A stretch of DNA of 64,000 nucleotides from Thermotoga sp. (lineage in GTDB: Bacteria > Thermotogota > Thermotogae > Mesoaciditogales > Mesoaciditogaceae): positions 16,697-80,696 of the forward strand of contig DYLQ01000002.1 of assembly GCA_020722015.1 (NCBI GenBank). Direction: 5' to 3'. A model generated the notes under the pieces. The model was not told the DNA's origin. It saw only the letters and a program-made list of their open reading frames with translations, and searched no databases. The first letter of the stretch is position 1. Each line of letters starts with the position of its first letter. The position numbers and the translations under genes were made by a program. Below, piece by piece: positions 47,837-49,186 of this stretch.

Positions 47837-47865
47837 TTGACAATTTATTTTTTTTATGGCATAAT
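47837..47865 (+). promoter_or_regulatory. promoter of the asparagine synthetase leader transcript
   Basis: Consensus TTGACA (47837-47842) and CATAAT (47860-47865) with a 17-base spacer, the best-looking promoter in the window. Transcription would start near 47872, giving a leader of about 175 bases before the structural gene. Confidence 0.78.
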
Positions 47866-47891
47866 ATTCTAAATTTTAGGGAAGTGATTAA

Positions 47892-47972
47892 ATGGTTACA
47901 TGCTTAACATGTATGACTTGTAAAATTAACAACAATAATAATAACTCAATCGACGTCGGTTGGTTGGGTTAG
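47892..47972 (+). CDS. asparagine-rich leader peptide (attenuator)
   Basis: A 26-codon open frame, ATG 47892 to TAG 47970-47972, behind a good ribosome site AGGGAAGTGA. Codons 13-18 (47928-47945) are AAC AAC AAT AAT AAT AAC, six asparagines in a row; the peptide reads MVTCLTCMTCKI, six Asn, then SIDVGWLG. The preceding part has a CxxCxxC pattern of unknown meaning. It lies between a promoter and a terminator just ahead of an asparagine synthetase gene, so the Asn run should act as the sensor in ribosome-mediated attenuation: scarce Asn-tRNA stalls the ribosome there. Too short for normal gene calling. Existence is inferred from sequence design, not from expression data. Confidence 0.88.
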   Translation: MVTCLTCMTCKINNNNNNSIDVGWLG

Positions 47973-48004
47973 TTTTTGATATAAGAAATCCCAAAAGGCC
48001 GATG
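47954..48004 (+). promoter_or_regulatory. predicted antiterminator hairpin
   Basis: Bases 47954-47968 (last codons of the leader peptide, CGTCGGTTGGTTGGG) can pair with 47990-48004 (CCCAAAAGGCCGATG): five pairs GGG/TT with CCC/AA, a two-base mismatch, then T-G, T-G, G-C, G-C, C-G, T-A, G-T and C-G, with a 21-base loop. This uses up most of the 5' arm of the terminator, so the two structures exclude each other. A ribosome stalled on the Asn codons leaves this segment free; a ribosome at the stop codon covers it. Drawn by hand; energies not computed. Confidence 0.72.
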
Positions 48005-48033
48005 AGAAAACTCATCGGCCTTTTAAAATTTTT
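47993..48033 (+). terminator. attenuator (Rho-independent terminator) before the asparagine synthetase gene
   Basis: AAAAGGCCGATGAG (47993-48006), loop AAAA, CTCATCGGCCTTTT (48011-48024), a 14-bp perfect stem followed by AAAATTTTT. It is placed between the leader peptide and the ribosome site AGGAGG (48034-48039) of the structural gene, and can only form if the antiterminator does not. Confidence 0.88.
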
Positions 48034-48046
48034 AGGAGGTGTTAAA

Positions 48047-48955
48047 ATGGTAAATGTTCAAGAAAGTCCCAAAGTTAAAAGAGAAGTGCTTGAGGTCTCA
48101 AGTGAGATCATGTCTGAAGCGGGACAATTTTTGAGAAGAAATGGATTCATCGAAATTTTACCAGTCATAATTTCCCCAATAACCGATCCTCTTAATCACA
48201 GCGTTCTTGATGCTTCGATCAATTACTACGACGGCCAGTACTCTTTAACCAAATCGATGATCTTTCACAAACAGCTTGCAGTCAGAGTTTTTCCAAAAAT
48301 CTTCACATTTTCCCCGAATATACGTCTTGAAACAGAAGACAAAAAATCAACAGGAAGACACCTAATAGAATTCACACAACTTGATCTTGAAGTCAAAGAT
48401 GCAAAAAGAGACGATATTTTAACTCTTGTAGAAAACTTGTTCGTAGAGGTCTTTAAAGATCTTGACAAAAAATTTGGTAAAATTATCAGATCGACGAACC
48501 CTCACTTTTCAATTCCGAAAATTCCTTTCGAACGTGTAAGATATCTTGAAGCTCTCGAAAAATACGGGAGCGATTTCGAGGCCATCCTTTCAAAACAGGC
48601 AACGGAACCATTCTGGCTTATAGACATACCAATAGAAGAGAGAGAATTTTATGACAGGTTAGACGGGGATGGAAAGGTCCTTGCAGATATGGATCTGATA
48701 TATCCATATGGATTTGGAGAGGCCATTTCCGGAGGAGAGAGGGAACACGAGTACGAAAAAATTCTTTACAGAATGAGTCTTAAAGGTAATGATCAAAAAT
48801 CTTTAAAATGGTACCTCGACGAGGTCAAAAAGGGAATACCGCCATCGGCAGGGTGCGGAATCGGTATCGAAAGGCTTACAAGATTTGTGTGCAATTTAAG
48901 GCATGTTTCTGAAGCGAGGTTATTCGCAAAAGTACCCGGAAGTTTATCAATATAA
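48047..48955 (+). CDS. archaeal-type asparagine synthetase related to AsnRS (ammonia-using)
   Basis: A 302-residue class II aaRS catalytic core with no N-terminal anticodon-binding domain. Motif 2 lies in FSPNIRLETEDKKSTGRHLIEF and motif 3 in GCGIGIERLTRFV; PHFSIPKIPFERVRYLEAL and DMDLIYPYGFGEAISGGERE match the AspRS/AsnRS family. Pyrococcus abyssi has a similar stand-alone core that makes asparagine from aspartate, ATP and ammonia, and this is the proposed activity. The Asn-codon leader in front supports it strongly. The alternative, a trimmed AsnRS, is less likely without the tRNA-binding domain. The ATG at 48047 lies behind AGGAGG; the frame open to 47960 runs through the terminator. Confidence 0.87.
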   Translation: MVNVQESPKVKREVLEVSSEIMSEAGQFLRRNGFIEILPVIISPITDPLNHSVLDASINYYDGQYSLTKSMIFHKQLAVRVFPKIFTFSPNIRLETEDKKSTGRHLIEFTQLDLEVKDAKRDDILTLVENLFVEVFKDLDKKFGKIIRSTNPHFSIPKIPFERVRYLEALEKYGSDFEAILSKQATEPFWLIDIPIEEREFYDRLDGDGKVLADMDLIYPYGFGEAISGGEREHEYEKILYRMSLKGNDQKSLKWYLDEVKKGIPPSAGCGIGIERLTRFVCNLRHVSEARLFAKVPGSLSI

Positions 48956-48978
48956 AAACAGCCCATTGGGCTGTTTTT
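48954..48978. terminator. bidirectional terminator between asparagine synthetase and rpmE
   Basis: AAAAACAGCCCA and TGGGCTGTTTTT form a 12-bp stem with a one-base-plus centre; both strands end in T-runs. It overlaps the stop codons region of both convergent genes and should end both transcripts. Confidence 0.9.
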
Positions 48979-49186
48979 ACTTTTTTGCGTTTGAATATCT
49001 TTTGTTAAATCTGTCCACTTGTCCTTCGATATCAACTATGTTTGACCTTTTACCCGTGAAAAACGGATGACATGCAGAACAGACTTCTAATGTTATCTTT
49101 TCCTTCGTTGATAACACTTTGTACTCAGCACCACATGCACATGTAGCCGTAACTTCGTGTAACTGTGGATGTATACCTTTTTTCAC
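48977..49186 (-). CDS. rpmE: 50S ribosomal protein L31 (zinc-binding type)
   Basis: A 69-residue L31. It keeps the zinc ligands of the C+ form: CAC in VTATCACGAEY and CSAC in LEVCSACHPFFTGK; IHPQLHEV and DRFNKRY are signature blocks. It starts with GTG at 49186 behind AGGAGG, 12 bases after the upstream gene, so it may share that transcript. The terminator stem overlaps its stop codon. Confidence 0.96.
   Translation of the reverse strand: MKKGIHPQLHEVTATCACGAEYKVLSTKEKITLEVCSACHPFFTGKRSNIVDIEGQVDRFNKRYSNAKK

Follow-up and report, generated by a model that had tools for sequence, protein, structure and literature searches.

On the forward strand of the window, by which we mean the whole 64,000-nucleotide stretch of DNA analysed here, a short leader open reading frame and a terminator precede a gene for an asparagine synthetase. 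The region begins with a sigma-70-type promoter (TTGACA-17-CATAAT with an extended -10, 47837-47865), which matches the consensus at 11 of 12 positions and is the top-scoring match within 6 kb; promoters scoring 9 or more of 12 lie at the equivalent place in 35 of 45 relatives. Behind it are a Shine-Dalgarno-like sequence, AGGGAAGTG (47878-47886), and a leader ORF of 26 codons (47892-47972) that encodes the peptide MVTCLTCMTCKINNNNNNSIDVGWLG and ends in TAG. Six consecutive Asn codons, AAC AAC AAT AAT AAT AAC (47928-47945), lie in frame within this ORF and form the putative sensor. As expected of an attenuator, the leader has a promoter and a ribosome site, and its codon run specifies the amino acid that the product of the gene behind it would make. 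A preliminary description of this DNA had picked out the consensus promoter, the 26-codon frame with its own ribosome site and the six Asn codons, and each of these held on closer reading.

The controlled gene (48047-48955, 302 aa) has its own ribosome binding site, AGGAGGTG (48034-48041), and is apparently monocistronic, with a terminator of its own at 48953-48979. Archaeal enzymes of the family to which it belongs make Asn from Asp and ammonia. Its product scores 387.6 bits against NCBIfam NF005054, for which the cut-off is 309, and consists of a class II catalytic core without an anticodon-binding domain. The closest solved structures are the AsnRS-related proteins 1nnh and 3p8t (E 2e-62 and 2e-59), of which 3p8t bears the database title archaeal asparagine synthetase A. 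We thus agree with the preliminary assignment of the gene as an AsnRS-like core whose Pyrococcus relative makes asparagine, and refer to it as an archaeal-type asparagine synthetase (AS-AR). The same genome encodes a true AsnRS, GatB and one asnB-type homologue; an E. coli-type AsnA was not found in it, nor was an Asn leader before its AsnRS gene. Given the true AsnRS, tRNA-Asn is likely charged from free Asn by this enzyme, as the sensing logic needs, and the asnB-type homologue may give the cell a source of Asn besides AS-AR.

Between the sensor codons and the gene, the RNA can fold into three mutually exclusive hairpins. The first, a 13-bp protector hairpin that the preliminary description did not name, pairs arm 1 with arm 2 (1:2; 47942-47954 with 47959-47971) and is supported by covariation in 12 sequences. 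The second is an antiterminator (2:3) made of two helices of 8 and 5 bp, 47954-47961 with 47997-48004 and 47964-47968 with 47990-47994. The third is the terminator (3:4), a 14-bp stem (47993-48006/48011-48024) that shows two-sided changes in the alignment and is followed by AAAATTTTTA. The T-tract in the genus of the window, UUUUAAAAUUUUU, is interrupted, has its first UUUU within the stem and is weaker than those of most relatives. Just after hairpin 1:2 we also noticed by eye, in several lineages (L008-L010, L016-L024), the motifs TTGTG or TTTGCG, which are similar to the core of sites at which RNA polymerase pauses.

We folded the transcript with RNAfold with a ribosome footprint placed on it. 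In RNA that extends to 48005, a ribosome on Asn codon 1, 2, 3, 4 or 5 leads to pairing of 47954-47968 with 47990-48004, worth -21.2 kcal/mol at 37 C and -12.2 kcal/mol at 55 C, and one on Asn codon 6 to a slightly shorter antiterminator. Once the ribosome has moved on to the leader stop codon, no stable structure is predicted for a transcript ending with arm 3, and the terminator is free to form. The antiterminator, which excludes the terminator, is thus available at an Asn-codon stall and masked at the leader stop. These are exactly the pairings that had been proposed from inspection, together with the placement of the 5' arm in the last leader codons and of the 3' arm in the stem of the 14-bp terminator, the one qualification being the interruption of the T-tract. 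In the full-length RNA, the terminator is preferred at equilibrium whatever the state of the ribosome, which means that switching has to be under kinetic control, as it is in attenuators generally.

These features are consistent with a model in which the element is very probably a ribosome-mediated transcription attenuator specific for asparagine; ribosome stalling, the termination decision and the dependence on Asn are steps that we infer from sequence. Transcription would start near 47872, and a ribosome would load onto the leader ORF. When Asn-tRNA is short, the ribosome would stall on the Asn codons at 47928-47945 and cover arm 1, so that arm 2 would stay open and could pair with arm 3 once the latter is made; as the antiterminator takes the 5' arm of the terminator, polymerase would read into the asparagine synthetase gene. 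When Asn-tRNA is plentiful, the ribosome would reach the stop codon at 47970 and cover arm 2, so that the terminator would form and transcription would end before the gene. If no ribosome is present, hairpin 1:2 and the terminator would both be expected to form. With the trp, his, leu, ilv, thr and phe attenuators, this arrangement shares a short leader ORF carrying a codon run for the amino acid produced, a set of three hairpins that exclude one another, a leader stop over arm 2 and an intrinsic terminator before the gene. It differs in its amino acid, in its phylum, Thermotogota, and in its target, an asparagine synthetase derived from AsnRS, which is joined in some genomes by glutamine synthetase.

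AS-AR scores over the NF005054 cut-off in 45 of 103 Thermotogota genomes. Of the Thermotogota AS-AR loci with upstream sequence, 44/44, in five families, have a leader ORF with Asn codons and a terminator behind it; at the 45th locus (G003), which was left out, the contig end falls inside the terminator. The 44 leaders have 17-34 codons, and the median distance from the Asn codons to the stop is 8 codons. Most of these leaders have 3-9 Asn codons in their longest run, and five have 1-2. Both Asn codons are in use (197 AAT, 75 AAC). In genus g28 (L020, L021, L023, L024, L026) and in L013, the leaders contain 2-4 Asn codons with all stems kept, and with fewer Asn codons these sensors may be less sensitive. 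Families f2, f10 and f11 had neither an AS-AR over the cut-off nor a match to a search pattern of an Asn run plus a terminator. Partial or broken AS-AR genes in three further genomes (G024, G084, G086) are also preceded by a leader and terminator; in G086 (L213, G086:C12:117200-118000) both are intact, and the AS-AR frame is broken by stops. One apparent exception to the rule (G027, L122) was rejected when its leader was found several hundred nucleotides farther upstream, behind a repeat-like insert between attenuator and AS-AR (L210, G027:C20).

The stems are conserved with their partners across lineages. We analysed 45 loci, comprising 43 Thermotogota rows (one genome counted twice) and two copies from Caldisericum MAGs. 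A ribosome at the leader stop covers 100% of the arm-2 partners of the terminator's 5' arm in these loci, and in 44/45 at least half of arm 3 of the terminator can be captured with a ribosome on an Asn codon. The mean folding z-score over the 45 loci is -2.95, and at some loci the individual z-score for 2:3 is modest. Ribosome-mask folding and arm-swap tests were used in place of per-locus dinucleotide shuffles of the 2:3 duplex limited to the terminator arm, which we dropped as too weak because arm 3 extends upstream of the terminator stem. The sequences of the paired arms vary by lineage, with CATCGGTC pairing with GGCCGGTG, GACCGGCCTGTCTTT with AAAGACAGGCCGGT, CAGCGTCGGCAATT with GGTTGCCGGCGCTG and GCCGGCTC with GAGCCGGC. 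When arms were swapped across families among 27 representatives, 2:3 fell from -20.1 in the native combinations to -13.5 +/- 0.75 kcal/mol (z -8.8), and the same test gave z -10.4 for 3:4. For the extension of 2:3 outside the terminator stem, swapped only within families, z was -2.9.

Within Mesoaciditogaceae and close copies (alignment A2, 12 sequences), 97.9% of cells are paired in 1:2, with 6 two-sided changes, and 89.3% in 3:4, with 7 two-sided changes. In 2:3, 94.9% of cells are paired with one-sided changes only, and in a column shuffle of A2 its covariation was no better than that of shuffled columns. One-sided changes are expected there, as these arms are tied to two partners, and they are no positive evidence of covariation. 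Compensatory changes thus accompany conservation across lineages and, for 2:3, not inside Mesoaciditogaceae. The parts of the element, their mutual exclusivity, their conservation and the covariation of the stems between lineages can be read directly from the DNA. In family f7, the leader is closely followed by ATTGTTATT, with which the Asn codons themselves can pair and so form part of arm 1, a departure from the trp/his type; a stalled ribosome would then open 1:2 directly. Folding for f7 was masked at the first Asn codon, since a mask at the last one covered arm 2. The comparison of upstream regions that the preliminary description had called for thus came out in favour of its trp/his/leu-type logic with Asn sensing, to which conservation, folding and stem covariation lend strong support.

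A stall need not report uncharged tRNA. As in TnaC-like control, the nascent peptide itself, or free Asn acting on the ribosome-peptide complex, could be what arrests the ribosome. A leader peptide does exist, and its tail is partly conserved within families (SIDIGRLG, GPGSVG, TQRR), but these conserved residues are encoded just where RNA arm 2 lies. Moreover, the peptides are wholly different between families apart from Asn, the number and codons of the Asn residues vary freely, and it is the Asn codons and the RNA arms that are kept. We therefore regard nascent-peptide or ligand-type control as very unlikely.

Control could also act at translation initiation, or through Rho instead of an intrinsic terminator. 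The interrupted T-tract of the window locus would suit such a scheme, as would the leaders before AS-AR in Aminicenantes and Bipolaricaulota described below, whose Asn codons and hairpin are not followed by a clear U-tract. However, an intrinsic terminator lies between leader and gene at 45/45 analysed loci, each with a GC-rich hairpin and T-rich sequence behind it that at many loci includes at least 6 T without a break, and it ends 22-157 nt before the gene. On this evidence, a mechanism working through translation or Rho has very little chance of being the right one, and attenuation at an intrinsic terminator remains the reading that we favour.

Asn-related genes can also be controlled by RNAs that read uncharged tRNA-Asn directly; in Firmicutes, T-boxes control such genes, among which PMC2494555 names asnS. 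Like those riboswitches, the proposed attenuator would respond to uncharged tRNA-Asn and act on Asn metabolism through antitermination, but sensing would be by a translating ribosome and not by direct binding of tRNA. We rejected a T-box and other Rfam families for the window, in which no covariance model of a regulatory RNA matched at gathering score and the best sub-threshold matches were to unrelated sRNAs. In the two Fusobacteria/Thermotogae genomes that the same paper covers, T-boxes were absent (PMC2494555), and a known element of this kind seems extremely improbable here.

Still less credible is the chance placement of a functionless Asn-rich ORF beside an ordinary terminator: AT-rich DNA does favour AAT codons, but runs of five Asn codons (AAYx5) occur at only two places in the 1.9-Mb genome, both with the same attenuator architecture and both at nitrogen-amide genes, and the leader is kept at all 44 Thermotogota loci across families and at 0/39 archaeal copies.

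The second of these runs (G000:C41:81571-81667; loci L143-L146, L152) lies in a leader for the peptide MMFAFFRMNNNNNNNNPIGTGRLG, within an attenuator of the same type that is followed by glnA, the gene for glutamine synthetase (TIGR00653, 538 bits against a cut-off of 429). The preliminary description had missed this copy, as it had the wider distribution. Athalassotoga has the same arrangement (G002, L153), and in another family G020 (L168) carries an attenuator before glnA with arm sequences of its own; all three glnA attenuators fold as expected in both states. In four genomes (G014, G081, G065, G059) the attenuated AS-AR has glnA as its immediate downstream neighbour in the same orientation, and the two genes there probably form one operon. 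In other Mesoaciditogaceae genera glnA is in a different operon without an Asn leader, so the link between AS-AR and glnA is not universal. The glnA copies and the AS-AR/glnA neighbours indicate that the Asn signal probably also governs ammonia assimilation. In the genus of the window, the second copy before glnA suggests that the Asn-tRNA signal also raises glutamine synthetase, and we infer that a shortage of Asn-tRNA is used as a sign of ammonia shortage.

Textbook accounts of leader-peptide attenuation deal with few amino acids and mainly with Proteobacteria and Actinobacteria. Our data would add to them asparagine and a distant, mostly thermophilic phylum. We found no Asn leader attenuation in the literature searched, which left out the 2010 survey of Lopatovskaya and others, a work that could contain a prediction. 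The mechanism appears to be classical ribosome-mediated attenuation with Asn specificity, a reading for which the support is about as good as sequence by itself can give. We likewise did not find described the link that the glnA copies make between the charging state of one tRNA and ammonia assimilation. Near-universal conservation provides dozens of natural variants for dissecting the switch, and the attenuator supports, independently of enzymology, the view that bacterial AS-AR genes really make asparagine.

Beyond Thermotogota, the archaeal AS-AR proteins (3p8t, 1nnh) are of the same family as the controlled enzyme, and no Asn leader ORF was found at the 39 archaeal AS-AR loci examined (mostly Thermoplasmata). 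Two Caldisericum MAG contigs (L041, L043) carry the same attenuator before AS-AR genes whose products are 71% and 67% identical to that of the window; as these contigs are short, the copies possibly reflect horizontal transfer or mis-binning. In Aminicenantes (L083, L085, L096) and one Clostridiales-labelled MAG (L112), the leader peptides of AS-AR finish with NNN(N)VP, and the Asn codons are directly followed by a GUCCCC...GGGGAC hairpin. In AS-AR leaders of Bipolaricaulota/Acetothermia (L070, L075, L076, L081, L089, L093, L099, L108, L109, L113), a set that includes one Neomarinimicrobiota-labelled copy, the Asn codons are near the leader stop, and many end near NxNAPxGA over a GCCCC...GGGGC hairpin. 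We saw no clear U-tract or terminator in either group. With a codon run near the stop and no clear terminator, they resemble the Cys leaders of actinobacterial cys operons (PMC1262725), whereas the Thermotogota Asn attenuators have a complete terminator and antiterminator. Taken together, we lean somewhat towards a broader model in which tRNA-Asn charging is a nitrogen-status signal in Thermotogota, where single, duplicated or operon-shared Asn attenuators would jointly control asparagine synthetase and glutamine synthetase, and in which Asn leaders of different architecture would control asparagine synthetase in Aminicenantes and Bipolaricaulota/Acetothermia.

The Asn run plus terminator pattern matched in 21 of the 103 Thermotogota genomes, with 0 matches in the reversed control, and all sites but one are at AS-AR or glnA. 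The exception, in G051 (L192, G051:C1:791982-792072), is an orphan Asn attenuator with neither gene behind it. The AS-AR of this genome carries a separate, f7-like attenuator elsewhere; the original AS-AR may have been replaced and its old leader left behind.
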